The notes under the pieces are model-generated. The model ran no database searches and had not been told where the DNA came from. It saw nothing but the letters and a program-made list of their open reading frames with translations. Made by a program: the position numbers and the translations under genes. From Cryomorphaceae bacterium (lineage in GTDB: Bacteria; Bacteroidota; Bacteroidia; Flavobacteriales; Schleiferiaceae), in NCBI GenBank assembly GCA_020832345.1, contig JAFIEY010000251.1, positions 1-48,568 on the forward strand: a stretch of 48,568 nt of DNA, written 5' to 3'. Shown piece after piece: positions 10,724 to 27,981 of the stretch (within the stretch, counting starts at the first letter, position 1; each line of letters starts with the position of its first letter).

Positions 10724-11575
10724 CTAATGAATACTTCTGTGACGAAAACTTCCCTTCAAAATTAAAACCATCGCAAACTGAACGCCCAATACAGCTGCAA
10801 TAGTTCCGGCGATAGATACATTTAGCCATATAGCCAAATAAAATCCCGCTACACTTCCCGTGATGGCAAACATGGTGGTTTTCCAAAGCATTTCGGGCAA
10901 CCGACGTGAAATAAGCCATGCGGTGGCTGAGGGTATCACCATTAAGGCAATTACCAAAATGGCGCCCACAGCCTCAAACGAAACGATGGTCACCATACTG
11001 GCCACACCACTGCTCAGATAGTGCCAAAACCCAATTGATATGCCGATGGAACTAGCGTATTCGGGATGGAAGCTGGTGATAAATAACCCGCGATAACCCG
11101 CCAATAAAACCAGTACGACGGCCAGTAAGGTGAAGACAGACGTGACAAAGGTGTTGGGAACCATCCATTGGGTAAAAGGGAAATGCATGCGTTGTAAAGC
11201 CGAAAAGGTGATTTCTCCGTGGAGCACACACTCTTGATCGAGATCAACTTGTTCTGCATATTTGCTCACCAGAATGATCCCAAATGCAAATAATGAAGTG
11301 AAAGTTATTCCAATGGAGGCATCATCGGTAACCTTGACTTTTCTTTTAAAAAACTCGACCAGAAAAATGCATAAAAACCCGAAGGCAATGGCGCCTGCCA
11401 ACATCCCTGGTGTGTTTCTACTACCGGTGATGAGAAATGCGATGACCAGACCCGGTAATACAGCATGGCTAATGGCATCTGCGAGCATGGCCCGGTGGCG
11501 GAGCACCAAAAATGCTCCCGCGAGCGAACAGCTCAGGGAAATTATAATGGCGTGGATGAGTACCCAGATGTTCAT
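10724..11575 (-). CDS. Manganese/iron/zinc ABC transporter permease (ABC-3 family, YtgD/TroD-like)
   Basis: The 283-residue integral membrane protein has eight or nine hydrophobic helices and the family motif SLAGAFLVLRHRAMLADAISHAVLPG near the N-terminus. The coupling segment FEAVGAILVIALMVIPSATAWLIS, near residue 205, is characteristic of the ZnuB/TroC/MntB family. It is the last gene of a five-gene operon and overlaps the preceding permease gene by 4 bases. It should form the channel together with that fused permease. Mn or Fe is a likelier cargo than Zn because of the MntR-like regulators in the operon (inference). Confidence 0.93.
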   Translation of the reverse strand: MNIWVLIHAIIISLSCSLAGAFLVLRHRAMLADAISHAVLPGLVIAFLITGSRNTPGMLAGAIAFGFLCIFLVEFFKRKVKVTDDASIGITFTSLFAFGIILVSKYAEQVDLDQECVLHGEITFSALQRMHFPFTQWMVPNTFVTSVFTLLAVVLVLLAGYRGLFITSFHPEYASSIGISIGFWHYLSSGVASMVTIVSFEAVGAILVIALMVIPSATAWLISRRLPEMLWKTTMFAITGSVAGFYLAIWLNVSIAGTIAAVLGVQFAMVLILKGSFRHRSIH

Positions 11576-12873
11576 GATTTTGCAGGGGTGTCGTAGGGAA
11601 TTCTTTTTTGGTGCGGATCGAGTTCCGGATAGTCCAGTTCATGCAGCAGTTGAGCTTCCAGATCTTCGGTGATAATATGCTCCATGCTTTCGGCAATGGG
11701 GTGAATGTGATCCTCCTTTAGTCTCATTTTCTGACTTAGATACAACTCCCAAAGTCGGTGAAGTCGGGTAATTCTCCGACCTTCATTTAAACCCTCGCCG
11801 GACAATGTCCATCCGTTTTTTCCCTGAAGTACCCATTTTTTTCTTTTGAGCATGCCCAAGATTCGTTGTAAATCGTTTTCGGAAAACATACGCTTTTTTT
11901 GAATTTCCTCAAAGGTAAATTCAGCTTGCTCACCTTTTTGTTCCCGAAGGTGATACAGCGCTTTGAGGAGGTTTTCCCGCTGAATGATTTGTCGGTTTTT
12001 TCGCTTTTGAAAAGCCCTTTGGACCAAACCACGATGGGTGGAAAAAAGAACACTGAATCCAAATATGAAAAACAAAACCATGACAATCCACGGTCCGGTA
12101 GGCATGGATTTTCCGCTAAAGGAAATGAGTGAACCACTTATCGCACTTACCGCGGCAATACCACCAGCAAGCATTAACATCGTCCATAGTCGCTGTGACC
12201 ACATACGGGCTATGGCCGCCGGTGTAATCAGCAAAGCCGCCATGAGAATGAGACCGATGCTCTGTATGCCAATTGCCGTAGCGATTACAACCAAAATGGA
12301 TAAAACTGTTCCCGAAGTTTGCGGGGAAAATCCCATGCTTTGTGCTCCTGCTTTATCAAATGAGACAAAAGTTAAACTTCGATACAAAGCCAGTAAAACA
12401 ATCAGGGCGACCAGAGCGAAAATGGAATACACCAAAATATCACTCGGTAAAAGTGAAGCTGCCTGACCAAATAAAAAGCTCTGCAACCCCGAAGCGTCGG
12501 GAAGTCCGCTGTTTTGAATCTGGGTTAGCAACATCATGCCCAATCCGAAAAAGGCGGACAGGACGATGGCCATGGCAGTAGAAGGTTTTAAATGCGACTT
12601 CCTGGTAATCCACTCGATGGCCAAAACGGTCAAGAACCCCCATACGAGCGCACCGATCATGATATAGGCTGCGTTTTTTTGCCCGCTGAGTAAAAATGAT
12701 CCGGCCACACCGGGTAATATGCCGTGCGCAATGGCGTCGCCCAGCAGAGATTTTTTTTGCAAATAAGTAAAGGTACCCACCCATGCAGAAACTGCGGATA
12801 AAAATGCTGTGCCGAAAAGAACCCAGCGCATATTGGGTTCATCCAGACCGAGGGTGTTCCATAACGCGTACAT
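11572..12873 (-). CDS. Metal ABC permease fused to a DtxR-type repressor (YtgCR-like)
   Basis: This 433-residue protein has an ABC-3 permease of about 280 residues (TFTYLQKKSLLGDAIAHGILPG, GIQSIGLILMAALLITPAAIA). A basic linker (HRGLVQRAFQKRKNRQ) follows, then a C-terminal domain of about 135 residues resembling DtxR/MntR. That domain has a winged helix (RENLLKALYHL...ILGMLKRKKWVLQGKNGWTLS) and a dimerisation/metal region with H372, E376, H391, E395, E398 and H399 by my count. Those positions match the MntR metal ligands. In Chlamydia, YtgCR has the same fusion and order (ytgA-B-CR-D) and its repressor part is released by proteolysis; whether that happens here is unknown. It starts three bases after the ATPase gene. 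Confidence 0.92.
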   Translation of the reverse strand: MYALWNTLGLDEPNMRWVLFGTAFLSAVSAWVGTFTYLQKKSLLGDAIAHGILPGVAGSFLLSGQKNAAYIMIGALVWGFLTVLAIEWITRKSHLKPSTAMAIVLSAFFGLGMMLLTQIQNSGLPDASGLQSFLFGQAASLLPSDILVYSIFALVALIVLLALYRSLTFVSFDKAGAQSMGFSPQTSGTVLSILVVIATAIGIQSIGLILMAALLITPAAIARMWSQRLWTMLMLAGGIAAVSAISGSLISFSGKSMPTGPWIVMVLFFIFGFSVLFSTHRGLVQRAFQKRKNRQIIQRENLLKALYHLREQKGEQAEFTFEEIQKKRMFSENDLQRILGMLKRKKWVLQGKNGWTLSGEGLNEGRRITRLHRLWELYLSQKMRLKEDHIHPIAESMEHIITEDLEAQLLHELDYPELDPHQKRIPYDTPAKS

Positions 12874-12876
12874 GAT

Positions 12877-13665
12877 TTAGTTTTCTTCTTGGCCTTTTTC
12901 CCGTATTGGAAAATCTTTTTTGGCGATGAGTTCACCAATTCTCGAAAGCACCGTCAGTCTTCCGCCGTATGCTTCCTGAAGGAGGTCAGAGGTGAAAACT
13001 TCCTCAGCTGCACCCGAGGCGACCAAACGGGTGTTGAGCAATGCGATGTGGTCAAAATATTCGTAGGCAGTCTGAAGATCGTGGTGAACAATAACCACGG
13101 TTTTTCCATTGTTTTTCATTTCGGTAAGCAGATTGAGGATGGCATCTTCTGAGGCCGCATCGACCCCAACAAAGGGTTCGTCCATTAGGTATAAATCTGC
13201 TTTTTGCGCCAGCGACCGAGCGATAAAAACCCGCTGCTGTTGCCCCCCGGAAAGTTGACTGATATGTCTATTGGCAAATTCCAACATATTCACGCGCGAC
13301 AAAGCTTCAATGGCGATGTCCTTATCCTCACGTGAAATCCTGCCAAAGAGTTTTTTCGGGTTATATCTGCCCATGAGCACAACATCCATGACGTCAGCGG
13401 GAAAGTCCCAATCCACGGTTTCCCTTTGCGGCACATAACTTACGCGATGTCGAACTTTGTCGAGCTTTTCGCCAAAAATTCGTATGTATCCGCTGTCGGG
13501 TTTCATCAACCCCATTATGTTTTTCAGCAGGGTAGTTTTCCCCGAACCATTTGGGCCAACAATTCCGATGAGCTTACCTTGTGGAAATTGGCAATCTATT
13601 TCCCACAGTACCGGTTTTCTTTCGTAGCTGGCCGTGAGGTTGTGAATATCTATTGCGGGGGTCAT
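12877..13665 (-). CDS. Metal ABC transporter ATPase (YtgB/TroB/ZnuC-like)
   Basis: The 262-residue ATPase has all ABC motifs: Walker A GPNGSGKT near residue 37, Q-loop SYVPQRETVDWDFP near 78, signature LSGGQQQR near 140, Walker B LYLMDEP near 158 and the switch histidine in VIVHHD. The Q-loop phrase and DVVLMGRY are typical of the Mn/Zn/Fe import subfamily. Its start codon overlaps the stop of the binding-protein gene (ATGA), so translation is coupled. It powers the two downstream permeases from the cytoplasmic side. Confidence 0.95.
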   Translation of the reverse strand: MTPAIDIHNLTASYERKPVLWEIDCQFPQGKLIGIVGPNGSGKTTLLKNIMGLMKPDSGYIRIFGEKLDKVRHRVSYVPQRETVDWDFPADVMDVVLMGRYNPKKLFGRISREDKDIAIEALSRVNMLEFANRHISQLSGGQQQRVFIARSLAQKADLYLMDEPFVGVDAASEDAILNLLTEMKNNGKTVVIVHHDLQTAYEYFDHIALLNTRLVASGAAEEVFTSDLLQEAYGGRLTVLSRIGELIAKKDFPIREKGQEEN

Positions 13666-14660
13666 GTTTGTTCTTCTTGATAGGTTTCGCCACTCAGGGC
13701 TTCATAAATGCTGATTACGTTGTGGCGGAAAGCTCCGATTAATGTGCCTTCTGGACTGTCTTTTTCGCCAAGTGCATCGCCGTAAAGGGTGTTGCCCAAT
13801 TTAACTTCCCAGCCTTTTTTCCGACAACCCTCAACCACCGCTTTTAGGGCTTTATCCGAAATGCTGGTTTCGGGGAAAATAGCCGGAATTTTATTGTCAA
13901 CCAAAAAATTAACCAAATCTGAAACATCCCGAATGCCGTATTCGGAGACGGTGGAAATACCCTGAAGCGCTTTTACTTCCACGTCGTATGCCCGTCCGAA
14001 ATATCGAAATGCATCGTGGGCAGTGACCAATACGCGTTTTTCTTTGGGGATTTCCCCGAGAAGCCGAACAGCCCATTCGTGTTCAACCTCTAATTTGGAC
14101 CGATAACGTTGTGAATTTCCTTGAATTTCATTATAAAGTCTCGGATATAGATTTCCCAAAACCTGAGAAAGACTGTCAACGGCTTTGCTCCACAATCGCA
14201 GGTCGAACCAAATATGCGGGTCGTGCGAGCCTTCGAAATCCGAGGCCGGTATGAGGTCGTTGTAGTTTAATCCGGCAATAATGGCGTATGTTCGACGATA
14301 TCCCCAAGAGTCTTCTAAAATCTTTCCTAACTTTCCTTCGAGGTTCATTCCATTGTGACAAAAGAAGTGCGCTTCCTCTAGGCGAGACAGGTCGGCGGGT
14401 GTGGGTTTGTAAAGGTGGGGGTCGATGCCGGGGCCCATCATGGTGTGTACCCGCGAGAATTTTTCACCCAAATTTTCCAAAGCATCAGCGATCATGCCTG
14501 TGGTTGCCATCCAGACGATTTTTTCTTCTTCCTTGAGTAAATCCACGGCACGCTCGCGCTTAACGACTTTTTCTTTGTCTTTGGGATTTTCCTGGCAACC
14601 CCATGCAAATAGACAAAAAAATACGGCTACTAGACTTTTTTGCAAAATATGTGTTGACAT
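13662..14660 (-). CDS. Metal-binding lipoprotein of the ABC transporter (cluster A-I, TroA/YtgA-like)
   Basis: The 332-residue protein has a lipoprotein leader with lipobox FAWGC near residue 22, so it is membrane-anchored on the periplasmic side. Cluster A-I features follow: TTGMIADALENLG, the first ligand in GPGIDPHLYKPTPAD, a second in HDPHIWFD, VTAHDAFRYFGRAYD, and the C-terminal ligand region YGDALG. The His/Asp-rich flexible loop of zinc-specific ZnuA proteins is absent, which favours Mn or Fe (inference). Its start lies 31 bases inside the 3' end of the regulator gene, an unusually long overlap that ties transporter synthesis to that of the regulator. Confidence 0.93.
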   Translation of the reverse strand: MSTHILQKSLVAVFFCLFAWGCQENPKDKEKVVKRERAVDLLKEEEKIVWMATTGMIADALENLGEKFSRVHTMMGPGIDPHLYKPTPADLSRLEEAHFFCHNGMNLEGKLGKILEDSWGYRRTYAIIAGLNYNDLIPASDFEGSHDPHIWFDLRLWSKAVDSLSQVLGNLYPRLYNEIQGNSQRYRSKLEVEHEWAVRLLGEIPKEKRVLVTAHDAFRYFGRAYDVEVKALQGISTVSEYGIRDVSDLVNFLVDNKIPAIFPETSISDKALKAVVEGCRKKGWEVKLGNTLYGDALGEKDSPEGTLIGAFRHNVISIYEALSGETYQEEQT

Positions 14661-15301
14661 GATATTTGAGATAACATAAGTGAAACATTATTTGGAATAA
14701 CCATGACTTTCATGGAGAGGTCGTGGCGTAAAATCTTTTCAATTCTAAGGACAGTACCCAGCTGAATTTTTTGTTGCTGCAAGTACTGTAAGAAATCTGG
14801 TGAATCATCGTTTACACCCAGAATACTCACACTTTCTCCTTCTTGAAAATCCGCGAGCATCTGCCGGTTTTGGTCAGGGAAATTTCCGTTTTCGTCGGGA
14901 ATGGGATCGCCGTGTGGGTCAAATTTCGGACGCCCCAGGTATTCGTATAGTCGGGTGGTGAGTTTTGCCGACTGAATGTGTTCCAATTGCTCAGCAACCT
15001 CGTGAACTTCATCCCATCTAAACTGCAATTTATCGACTAGGAACACCTCCCACAGTCGGTGTTTGCGAACGATGTTGACCGCAATTTCCCGTCCTTTTGA
15101 ACTCAGGGTTACCCCTTGGTATTTTTCGTATTTGATCAATCCTTTTTCACCGAGTTTTTTAATCATATCGGTAACTGAACTCGAAGCGATATTAATTTGT
15201 CGCGCTAGTTCGGAAGTGTTGACCGAGTCATTTTTCCCTTCACTTAGAGAAAAGATGGTTTTCAAATAATTTTCTTCGGTGTAGCTGAGGGGTTTTGTCA
15301 T
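14630..15301 (-). CDS. DtxR/MntR-family metal-dependent regulator
   Basis: The 223-residue protein has an N-terminal winged helix (residues 5-75; SELARQINIASSSVTDMIKKLGEKGLI), a dimerisation and metal domain (75-140; RKHRLWEVFL, WDEVHEVAEQLEHI, FDPHGDPIP) and a C-terminal FeoA/SH3-like domain (about 150-215). The metal-site residues I see are H81, E85, H100, E104, E107 and H108. Glu at 104, where DtxR has Cys102, is the MntR pattern; Asn11 stands where DtxR has Met10. It heads the transporter operon and an imperfect operator-like palindrome overlaps its promoter, so it probably represses its own operon when metal is plentiful (inference). Confidence 0.93.
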   Translation of the reverse strand: MTKPLSYTEENYLKTIFSLSEGKNDSVNTSELARQINIASSSVTDMIKKLGEKGLIKYEKYQGVTLSSKGREIAVNIVRKHRLWEVFLVDKLQFRWDEVHEVAEQLEHIQSAKLTTRLYEYLGRPKFDPHGDPIPDENGNFPDQNRQMLADFQEGESVSILGVNDDSPDFLQYLQQQKIQLGTVLRIEKILRHDLSMKVMVIPNNVSLMLSQISCQHIFCKKV

Positions 15302-15308
15302 ACCGTTT

Positions 15309-15326
15309 TTTTTACCTTGGCAAAAA
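15309..15326 (-). promoter_or_regulatory. Candidate MntR-like operator overlapping the metal operon promoter
   Basis: TTTTTACC (15309-15316), two bases, then GGCAAAAA (15319-15326) form an inverted repeat with 7 of 8 positions paired. On the minus strand the core reads TTTGCCAAGGTAAA, similar in form to MntR boxes built on TTTGCC. It covers a -7 box (TATTTTTG on the minus strand, 15321-15328) just upstream of the regulator's ATG at 15301. A bound repressor would block the promoter. Inference from sequence shape. Confidence 0.5.
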
Positions 15327-15427
15327 TACAGTAAAAGGCAGTAGCGAAAAAAAAAATTAGGCAGCCCGAAAAGAGATTTTATTAGGATTTGTCTGTATGG
15401 TAGGAGTATTCTTGTTTAAATAAATGT

Positions 15428-25857: not shown

Positions 25858-25879
25858 AATTTTGATAATTATCAAAATT
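25858..25879. promoter_or_regulatory. Perfect 22-bp palindrome upstream of a TonB-dependent receptor
   Basis: The half-site AATTTTGATAA is followed directly by its exact reverse complement. It lies 28 bases upstream of a -7-like box. The core TGATAATTATCA recalls Fur-family boxes but is shorter than the standard 7-1-7 arrangement. It is a good candidate for an operator of a metal-responsive dimeric regulator (inference). Confidence 0.5.
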
Positions 25880-25906
25880 AATTTTTAGACTAACCTAAAT
25901 TTTGTT

Positions 25907-25935: not shown

Positions 25936-27981
25936 ATGCGTGTATTTGGCGTTATCGTTTTTTCAATTTCATCTGTTTTTTATGGACAGATTCAGGCACA
26001 AAGTGTAGAGCAGGATTCCGCAAAGCTCGTTGAGTTGGCGCCTGCAACCATATTCGATAAACAAACAGGTTTGGCAGATGACACGCCTTACCAAATTGAA
26101 AGGGTTTCACTTCAACCCATCGAATTTAGGAGTAATCCATCCGGCGTCATGGGGCAACTTCGGCAAATTCCCGGCGTCAATGGTGCGGAAATGGGACACG
26201 GGATTGTCAAACCATTTATTCGCGGACTGGGCTTTTCGCGTGTGGTCACCATTTATCAGGGGAATAAATTAGAAAACCACCAATGGGGTGCCGACCACGG
26301 TTTGGGAATTAGTGATTTAGGGGTAAATAATGTGCAAATCATTAAAGGGCCGGCTTCCATACTTTACGGCTCTGGAGCTGTTGGAGGCGTTTTGGTGTTG
26401 GAAGACGATGAAAGGATTTTTTCAAAAAACTATTTTTCCGGAAATGCAGGGATGTCTTATAATTCCGTTTCCGGTGGGTATCGACCATATTTTAACCTAG
26501 GCAGGAAATGGGAAAACGGATTTTTTCTTGGTGCAGATGCCGCCATCGAAAGGCATGCAGATTACCTGGATGGGAGCGGTCGAATTATAGGTAATAGCCG
26601 ATTCTCTACCGATCAATTTAGAGTTCATACCGGATTTACAAAGAATAATTTTCGCGGCAAATTGTCATATACCTATTTGCGACAGCAGTTGGGCATTATC
26701 GAGGATGACGAAATGGATGAGTCATTGGCTACGGAGCGCTACGACTATCAAATGCAACTTCCTTTTCAAGACGTTACCGACCATTTAATTTCTTATAATC
26801 AAGTGGCAAAACTTGGGGATTGGAATACGACTTTTCACTTATCTCATCACATCAATGACCGAAATGAAATAGAGGATGATTTTGACGAGATAGACCTTGG
26901 ACTGGTTCAATCGCATACTTTTTGGAATTTCAGGATGCGAAAGGCCGCAGGAAAAAACTTTTTTCACACGGTGGGTTTACAGGGTACGTATTTGCACAAC
27001 AGAAATAAACGCAACGCAGAGGAGATTCTCATTCCAGATGCCCGCCTATTTGAAAATGCCATATTTTATCTCGGAACCTGGGAACGGAAGAAATGGACTT
27101 TTGAGTTTGGCGCTCGTTATGATTACCGGAATGTTGTTGCGGATGCCAGTCAGCCTCATTTGATTGATTATGGTTTTACACTTGCCGGAAATCCAGATGA
27201 TCGAAAATTAAATCGGGATTTTCATGGTCCTACCGGGTCTTTGGGTCTTTCCCGGCGAATAGGGTCCAATCAACAGGTGAAAGCCAATGTTTCTTCGGGC
27301 TTTCGCGCACCTGACCTATCTGAGCTTTTTTCCAACGGTCCACATCCGGGGACCAATCGCTTTGAAGTGGGAAATGCCAGTTTTGACCGGGAACAATCGC
27401 TACAATTCGATCTGGCCTATCAGTATCAAAAAGATCCTTTGACTTTTACTGCTAGTCCTTTTGTAAATATGGTACAGAACTACATCTATTTTGCCGCAAG
27501 TGGAAACACCACCCCAGATGGATTGAATATTTGGAATTTTTTACAGGAAGATGCGTATTTATTTGGCGGGGAGCTTCAGGTAAAATATGAACCAATAGAA
27601 GGACTGTGCATTGGCGCACAAAGCAGTTGGGTGCGTGGCAGGTTTCGCGATGCAAATTTGACCTTTATTCCGGCGGATAATTATCAGTTAGACTTGCGGT
27701 ATTCACCTTGGAAAAAGAGAAAATCTTCGGTTTTTGCCAGTGTACGTTACATCGATGATCAAAATCGCCCCGGACTGGGGGAGGAGGTAACCCCTTCATA
27801 TACTTTGGTGAATTTCGGGCTTAGTCACACTGTATCTCTTAAGAAAAGTGAATTACATTTTGGATTGACTTTATACAATGCCTTTAATCAGTTGTACATC
27901 GACCACATGTCTATTCTTCGCGCCTTTAATGTGCCTTCTGTCGGACGTAACTTGATGATAAACGTACAATACGCCTTTTAG
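25936..27981 (+). CDS. TonB-dependent outer membrane receptor, probable metal or metallophore importer
   Basis: The 681-residue receptor has a signal peptide (MRVFGVIVFSISSVFYGQIQAQ), no carboxypeptidase-like domain, a plug (about 45-160) and a barrel ending in NLMINVQYAF. The plug reads PFIRGLGFSRVVTIYQG and ENHQWGADHGLGI, then VQIIKGPASILYGSGAVGGVLVL. The IRGL..RV...G...E..QWG..H pattern is shared by Bacteroidota receptors for metals and metal complexes. With the operator-like palindrome upstream and a metal ABC importer elsewhere in the window, a metal-uptake role is likely but inferred. Repeat copy F lies 58 bases after its stop. Confidence 0.9.
   Translation: MRVFGVIVFSISSVFYGQIQAQSVEQDSAKLVELAPATIFDKQTGLADDTPYQIERVSLQPIEFRSNPSGVMGQLRQIPGVNGAEMGHGIVKPFIRGLGFSRVVTIYQGNKLENHQWGADHGLGISDLGVNNVQIIKGPASILYGSGAVGGVLVLEDDERIFSKNYFSGNAGMSYNSVSGGYRPYFNLGRKWENGFFLGADAAIERHADYLDGSGRIIGNSRFSTDQFRVHTGFTKNNFRGKLSYTYLRQQLGIIEDDEMDESLATERYDYQMQLPFQDVTDHLISYNQVAKLGDWNTTFHLSHHINDRNEIEDDFDEIDLGLVQSHTFWNFRMRKAAGKNFFHTVGLQGTYLHNRNKRNAEEILIPDARLFENAIFYLGTWERKKWTFEFGARYDYRNVVADASQPHLIDYGFTLAGNPDDRKLNRDFHGPTGSLGLSRRIGSNQQVKANVSSGFRAPDLSELFSNGPHPGTNRFEVGNASFDREQSLQFDLAYQYQKDPLTFTASPFVNMVQNYIYFAASGNTTPDGLNIWNFLQEDAYLFGGELQVKYEPIEGLCIGAQSSWVRGRFRDANLTFIPADNYQLDLRYSPWKKRKSSVFASVRYIDDQNRPGLGEEVTPSYTLVNFGLSHTVSLKKSELHFGLTLYNAFNQLYIDHMSILRAFNVPSVGRNLMINVQYAF

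Follow-up and report, generated by a model that had tools for sequence, protein, structure and literature searches.

In a 48,568-nucleotide stretch of DNA from a Cryomorphaceae bacterium (the window, which is contig C189 of a 4.03 Mb genome in 260 contigs), we find a metal-importer operon in which one permease ends in a DtxR-type domain and a separate DtxR-type protein, MntR, is encoded by the first gene. The fused domain combines a conserved metal site with an unconserved DNA-reading face beside the free MntR, a combination that, judged from sequence, looks new. That the free MntR is the transcriptional repressor of the operon, and that the fused domain is not, are both well supported by the comparisons below. 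Our reading, to which we assign a probability of roughly 0.55, is that the free MntR represses the operon, and that the fused domain no longer reads DNA but senses metal and slows or locks the importer.

All five genes lie on the minus strand in the order that a sequence-only reading of this stretch had proposed, and the same five-gene operon is common in relatives. In window coordinates the genes are:

14630-15301, minus strand: free DtxR/MntR-type repressor, 223 amino acids, first gene of the operon (PF01325, PF02742).
13662-14660, minus strand: ZnuA/TroA-type metal-binding lipoprotein, 332 amino acids (PF01297, 4.5e-57).
12877-13665, minus strand: ABC ATPase, 262 amino acids (PF00005), the sole match in the genome at E <= 1e-30.
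11572-12873, minus strand: ABC-3 permease with a C-terminal DtxR-type domain (Fe_dep_repr_C), 433 amino acids (PF00950, PF02742).
10724-11575, minus strand: second ABC-3 permease, unfused, 283 amino acids (PF00950, 2.7e-41).

With a ZnuA-type substrate-binding protein, an ABC ATPase and two ABC-3 permeases, the operon has the parts of a TroABCD (cluster A-I) importer, and its product is a TroABCD/PsaABC-type divalent-metal importer for Mn or Fe. The free MntR has the N-terminal winged helix-turn-helix (wHTH) and the metal-binding/dimerisation domain of DtxR/MntR proteins, with PF01325 (1.3e-18, 67.4 bits) and PF02742 (7.7e-31, 106.4 bits) both above cut-off and a weak FeoA match (20.8 bits vs. 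a cut-off of 23). In the fused protein, PF00950 covers residues 13-277 (1.2e-59) and PF02742 residues 360-426 (6.9e-18), giving the ABC-3 permease with a C-terminal, metal-residue-retaining DtxR-type domain that typifies YtgCR; PF01325, the DNA-binding half, was not matched by it even at E values up to 1. For the lipoprotein, both DtxR-type proteins and both permeases, no NCBIfam match exceeded a curated cut-off. The free and fused DtxR domains of the window are ~32% identical, and the genome as a whole encodes one free DtxR and two fused ones.

An AlphaFold model of the fused protein, built on a 36-sequence alignment, reached a predicted local distance difference test score (pLDDT) of 90.5 and a predicted template modelling score (pTM) of 0.82. 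Its permease part matches PsaBC (7kyp) with Z 34.8 over 282 residues at 3.0 Å, and residues 292-431 match DtxR (1p92) with Z 18.4 over 137 residues at 2.3 Å; the domain also matches DNA-bound DR2539 (8pw0), Z 18.3. Three segments matter for what follows:

11935-12027, minus strand: codons 283-313, a single long helix from the membrane part into helix 1 of the DtxR domain (AlphaFold/DSSP).
11842-11880, minus strand: codons 332-344, the recognition-helix equivalent of the fused domain, with unconserved DNA-facing positions (model and alignments).
11596-11796, minus strand: codons 360-426, the metal-binding/dimerisation part, with H372, E376, H391, E395, E398, H399 and H421 intact.

Because the first of these helices, confidently predicted and continuous, runs into the DtxR domain, the model has no loose linker at residues 280-298 and lends no visible support to proteolytic release. 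N301, on the same helix, is by comparison with DtxR and MntR presumably the helix-1 metal-ligand position. The second fused protein of this genome, a paralogue from an operon type that we call type B, has the same joining helix (283-312, AlphaFold), and its recognition-helix equivalent spans six residues (333-338) in a model of lower confidence (pLDDT 84.0, pTM 0.72).

We aligned 59 fused domains with 42 free MntRs; the fused rows comprise 25 of type A, the window's among them, 11 of type B, and 23 from G039 and an even draw of 296 Bacteroidota genomes (the phylum draw). As the sequence-only reading had stated, the alignment confirms that the His/Glu metal set is kept in both DtxR-type domains. 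Every fused row but one, the truncated L097, has H372, E376, H391, E398, H399 and H421 (58 of 59); position 395 holds E (52 rows) or D (6), and position 301 holds N (47), D (7), H (4) or K (1). For a paired comparison we used the 36 loci that encode both proteins, L097 having been dropped beforehand, and in all 36 H372, E376, H391, E398 and H399 are kept. The mean pairwise identity of the metal part is 0.58 in the fused and 0.62 in the free protein, and that of the recognition helix is 0.25 and 0.54, respectively. The drop from metal part to helix is larger in the fused protein for 597 of 630 locus pairs.

Pairs of relatives gave the same picture. Over 11 pairs, chosen by hand and some of them not very close, DNA-facing positions had changed at 56 of 98 sites in the fused domain and at 10 of 99 in the free protein, while the metal part had changed at 110 of 748 and 91 of 748 (Fisher p 0.17). 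Within the fused domain the DNA face differs from the metal part with p 7e-19; within the free protein p is 0.62. The hydrophobic core positions of the fused helix are better kept (11 of 54 changed), which indicates that the fold persists and the surface drifts. Three congeners of the window have gaps relative to it in the fused recognition-helix region, and the free MntRs shown for the genus all have ASSSVTDM as their recognition helix. Taking the DNA-contact residues of IdeR from PMC8464063, with the numbering transferred as IdeR n to MntR n+2 by motif spacing, the Thr40 position is S/T in 35/36 free and 5/36 fused proteins and acidic in 0/36 and 18/36; the Ser42 position is S/T in 36/36 and 5/36, and the Arg47 position K/R in 36/36 and 14/36. 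By sequence alone, then, the fused domain does not show the DNA-recognising wHTH of YtgCR. We infer that metal still binds the fused domain and that DNA does not.

The operator evidence points to the free protein as well. Our DtxR-type consensus, TTTAGGnnnnCCTAAA, was fixed, having been picked after seeing the congeners and from known DtxR-type boxes. Of 42 loci, 36 have a match of at least 10/12 to it upstream of the free mntR; among 1219 random windows taken from these loci, 4.8% reach that level. The 36 boxes span -17 to -296 relative to the MntR start; the six upstreams below 10/12 are L036 (9), L042 (8), L048 (8), L059 (9), L085 (8) and L097 (8). Two predicted elements precede the window's operon:

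15356-15371, minus strand: predicted MntR operator TTTCGGGCTGCCTAAT, a 6-4-6 palindrome matching TTTAGGnnnnCCTAAA at 10/12.
15321-15328, minus strand: TATTTTTG, a possible -7 element read from the sequence, with the operator upstream of it.

TATTTTTG would be a -7 element of the Bacteroidota promoter type. The predicted operator would supply the palindromic site that a DtxR/MntR protein has at its own operon, and it moves the likely operator from 15300-15330, where the sequence-only reading had looked for it, to 15356-15371. The same reading had two metal sensors acting on one operon. This is not supported: we found one DtxR-type operator, a conserved recognition helix occurs only in the free MntR, and the sister fusion operon in this genome lacks that operator and belongs to a type with a Fur-like box. 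Nor is the fused domain the only DtxR-type regulator of its operon, as YtgR would be, since the free MntR is the first gene. When the whole genome was scanned for the operator with a loose pattern that allowed one mismatch, there were 625 + 616 matches vs. 833 + 845 in the reversed control; no regulon can therefore be drawn from it.

Elsewhere in the window, a TonB-dependent receptor gene (25936-27981, plus strand) has a strong MntR-type box, TTTAGACTAACCTAAA, just upstream at 25884-25899, adjoined by a perfect palindrome, TTTTGATAATTATCAAAA, at 25860-25877. This arrangement makes it likely that the receptor serves the importer at the outer membrane and that one MntR controls both. Four mntR loci of other families (L076, L077, L078, L080) contain a distant receptor homologue (25-26% identity), and no box at 10/12 was found in the stretch scanned before these matches.

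Type-B operons, of which we examined 11, one of them in the window genome (contig C61, L035, 4993-8151), encode the fused and the second permease together with the lipoprotein; no ATPase gene and no mntR was found in the stretches examined at these 11 loci. TTTAGGnnnnCCTAAA at 10/12 or better occurs in 0/11 type-B upstreams, that of L037 comprising only 43 bases to the contig end; one 11/12 DtxR-type site, at position 183 of L067, is remote from the type-B operon of that locus. Most type-B upstreams share an inverted repeat near TTATTTAGAATnATTyTAAATAA, whose 7-1-7 layout is that of Fur-family boxes. We built a model of this box from four B loci; in six further B loci its score was equalled by 0, 0, 1, 0, 0 and 3 of 300 shuffles. 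L041, at 9.7, is barely above the highest of 20 A-type controls (9.5), and in L035 the match is off-centre. Fur-family genes are present in 10/10 genomes checked. Since type B lacks the DtxR-type operator and has a Fur-type box, one fusion type seems, on these upstream sequences, to serve under two transcriptional regimes. All 11 type-B fused domains also share a Cys and a C-terminal E-I-H motif replacing DPH...IPY, perhaps an extra or altered metal site.

With a single ATPase match in the window genome and none in the L035 operon, the two importers of this genome may share one ATPase. In type-B-only genomes an ATPase gene stands directly before a gene for a ZIP-type transporter (L099, 6032-7497; L100, 5354-7075; L103, 4387-6052), an assignment Pfam-tested in L099 and made by similar start in L100 and L103. 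A divergent mntR lies beside these genes in L099 and L100.

The fusion is widespread and recurs with a free partner. A fused permease of this kind is found in 30 of 60 related genomes, the window's own included, and in 27 of 37 genomes of its own family, both counted by hand from search rows; a sequencing or frameshift artefact was rejected on the strength of the 30 genomes. The sequence-only reading had named a fusion that is ubiquitous and non-regulatory in Bacteroidota as a finding that would speak against it. The phylum draw does not show ubiquity: it contains a fused frame in at least 23 of 296 genomes, G000 included, among the matches listed. A free DtxR is also present in 29/30 fused genomes of the related set and in 21/23 of those among the phylum-draw matches listed. 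In G047 of the 60-genome set, and in G275 and G259 of the phylum draw, the fusion is present and PF02742 found no free DtxR. Beyond two congeners, a scan of named genomes yielded only a Veillonellaceae permease in which no DtxR part could be detected, and the matches listed from a plasmid search were mainly ordinary permeases, plus one Halomonas permease with a wHTH-like stump.

The domain can also be absent. G017 has the operon with an unfused permease, MntR and a 12/12 operator, and in a midpoint-rooted permease tree of 75 rows this permease is sister to two fused ones with 100/100 support. The simplest reading is that G017 lost the fused domain and left the regulatory unit in place; this is support rather than proof, because the branch of L069, L072 and L074 is long and carries a long-branch warning. 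In two further permeases, L097 (G039, same order) and L098 (Halomonas), the metal domain is missing and only a wHTH-like stump is left, the reverse route to loss of the DtxR domain.

In the mechanism that we favour, metal-bound free MntR would sit on TTTCGGGCTGCCTAAT and shut the promoter, a role that a Fur-family protein would take over in type B. The tethered DtxR domain would sense cytoplasmic metal at the transporter and, when metal is plentiful, slow or lock the importer, a form of trans-inhibition with the DtxR fold as gate. Because the metal/dimerisation half is kept and a long helix joins it to the membrane part, the fused domain is most likely such a sensor. A tethered sensor, which the sequence-only reading saw as a possible link between transport state and transcription, more likely controls transport than transcription. 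More tentatively, and at slightly less than even odds, we extend this to the phylum: the Bacteroidota fusion would often be a DtxR metal switch repurposed as a trans-inhibition gate on the permease, with a free MntR or Fur-family protein running transcription.

The fused domain could instead act as in Chlamydia, as a second metal-dependent repressor that is released by proteolysis and acts on this operon or elsewhere. Its architecture and gene order are those of ytgABCRD, YtgR is described as cleaved and as repressing its own operon (PMC5599777, PMC7755916, PMC6504234, in the parts available), and the model of the fused domain matches DtxR with the Z of 18.4 over 137 residues given above. The DNA-reading face, however, is unconserved where that of the free MntR is conserved, PF01325 is unmatched, type-B upstreams have no DtxR-type box, G017 has the operator without the fused domain, and the AlphaFold model has no flexible linker; we consider this unlikely. 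Somewhat less likely again is that the tethered domain and the free MntR form a mixed dimer that keeps MntR at the membrane, so that importer state tunes repression. The frequent co-occurrence of a free DtxR (29/30 and, among phylum-draw matches listed, 21/23) and a dimerisation half conserved in both proteins would fit such an arrangement, but in G047, G275 and G259, where no free DtxR was found, the metal residues of the fused domain are kept, no mntR stands beside the type-B operons in the stretches examined, and the window's two DtxR domains are only ~32% identical.

The fused domain might be a metal buffer or chaperone that catches metal leaving the importer and passes it on without gating, which would account for strong constraint on the metal residues and a DNA face free to vary; retention of the whole dimerisation part and of the long joining helix would then be unexplained, and we think this improbable. 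It might also be the decaying, functionless remnant of a former repressor, in line with the partial or absent domains of L097, L098 and G017. Against decay, the six residues H372, E376, H391, E398, H399 and H421 persist in 58/59 fused rows from many families, and over the 11 pairs change in their metal part is not accelerated relative to free MntR; of the explanations considered this one seems to us the least probable.

Several observations weigh against the trans-inhibition gate that we prefer. That the fused domain gates transport is itself something we infer. The chlamydial fused domain, once cleaved, represses its own operon according to the available text of PMC5599777 and PMC6504234, and in the proteins studied here profile and structure comparison still identify the wHTH fold. 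With its hydrophobic core and much of its positive charge kept (K/R at 344 in 29/36 and at 340 in 27/36), the fused helix may still bind DNA in an unspecific or altered manner. In IdeR, DNA readout is largely indirect and the Q43A variant shows normal binding (PMC8464063), so that a loss of helix identity does not have to mean a loss of binding. Where indels occur, the variable helix is aligned with uncertainty, pooled sites and pairs are not independent observations, and the six-residue type-B helix comes from the lower-confidence model. The operator is imperfect in the window's genus (window 10, L036 9, L039 10, L040 10, L042 8 of 12). Finally, one of the two permeases in a heterodimeric importer carries the domain, giving one DtxR domain per importer, which does not readily provide a DtxR dimer. 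Some fusions stand alone: L090-L092 and L094-L096 have no second permease gene in the stretch examined, and a homodimeric permease there would set two DtxR domains side by side.

We know of no DtxR domain on the permeases of TroABCD-TroR, PsaABC or MntR-controlled importers, and FB2 of Porphyromonas gingivalis is a FeoB-type transporter. The window operon resembles TroABCD-TroR and PsaABC in its importer parts and in encoding a DtxR-type repressor alongside them (for troABCDR, PMC2628430, as far as that source was available). In P. gingivalis, PgMntR-FB2 joins a Bacteroidota DtxR/MntR protein with a Mn transporter in one operon, and PgMntR binds its promoter; it has two FeoA domains, and no permease fusion is described in the available part of PMC4805248. 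Neighbouring pairs of DtxR-type genes, one frame being ~340-370 amino acids long, occur in G187, G195, G306, G349 and others, and these long frames perhaps resemble the twin-FeoA PgMntR type.

The closest architectural relative is chlamydial YtgABCRD, which shares the lipoprotein, the ATPase, the permease with a C-terminal DtxR domain, the second permease and the metal residues, as described in the accessible text of PMC5599777. The likeness proposed in the sequence-only reading was thus borne out in architecture, our comparison being one of architecture and published descriptions. No iron-dependent regulator other than YtgR has been identified in Chlamydia (PMC6504234), and YtgR both binds DNA and undergoes cleavage; unlike YtgABCRD, the window operon starts with a free MntR, and the DNA-reading face of its fused domain is unconserved. 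Orthologous permease-DtxR fusions have been reported in 11 phyla, a result credited to Thompson et al. 2012 in the sections of PMC5599777 available, so the permease-DtxR fusion as such is already known.

That small fused domains can trans-inhibit importers is well established (PMC10710835): MetNI and ModABC each have such a domain on the cytoplasmic side, which binds the substrate of the importer and controls its uptake by feedback. There the domain sits on the ATPase and has other folds, whereas in the window it sits on the permease and has the DtxR fold, and its inhibition is presumed. The term DtxR is absent from the main text of this 2023 review, and the DtxR fold is not among the trans-inhibition domains in the sections of it at hand. 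Within an incomplete coverage of the literature we found no report of a DtxR domain regulating transport.

A dispersed repeat of 34-75 bp, AGTCTGCTCYAAAAAGTYCCTTTCTGCCAAAATC, has 8 copies in the window where none is expected (8892, 9163, 10666, 15449, 20285, 28131, 37126 and 41432), and at least 44 matches genome-wide, from 40 of 559 first-look candidates scored. Copies of it happen to lie on both sides of the operon. A locus-specific mobile element bounded by 47-nucleotide direct repeats was considered and rejected, because those repeats belong to this genome-wide dispersed repeat.

Permease-DtxR fusions have so far been read through the chlamydial example, in which a released repressor regulates its own operon, a model suggested to exist throughout bacteria (PMC5599777, in the part available). 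Our comparison argues that in Bacteroidota the fused domain has retained its metal site and not its DNA-reading face. If our reading is true, the fused domain would be a post-translational sensor on a metal importer, and such fusions should not be annotated as repressors.

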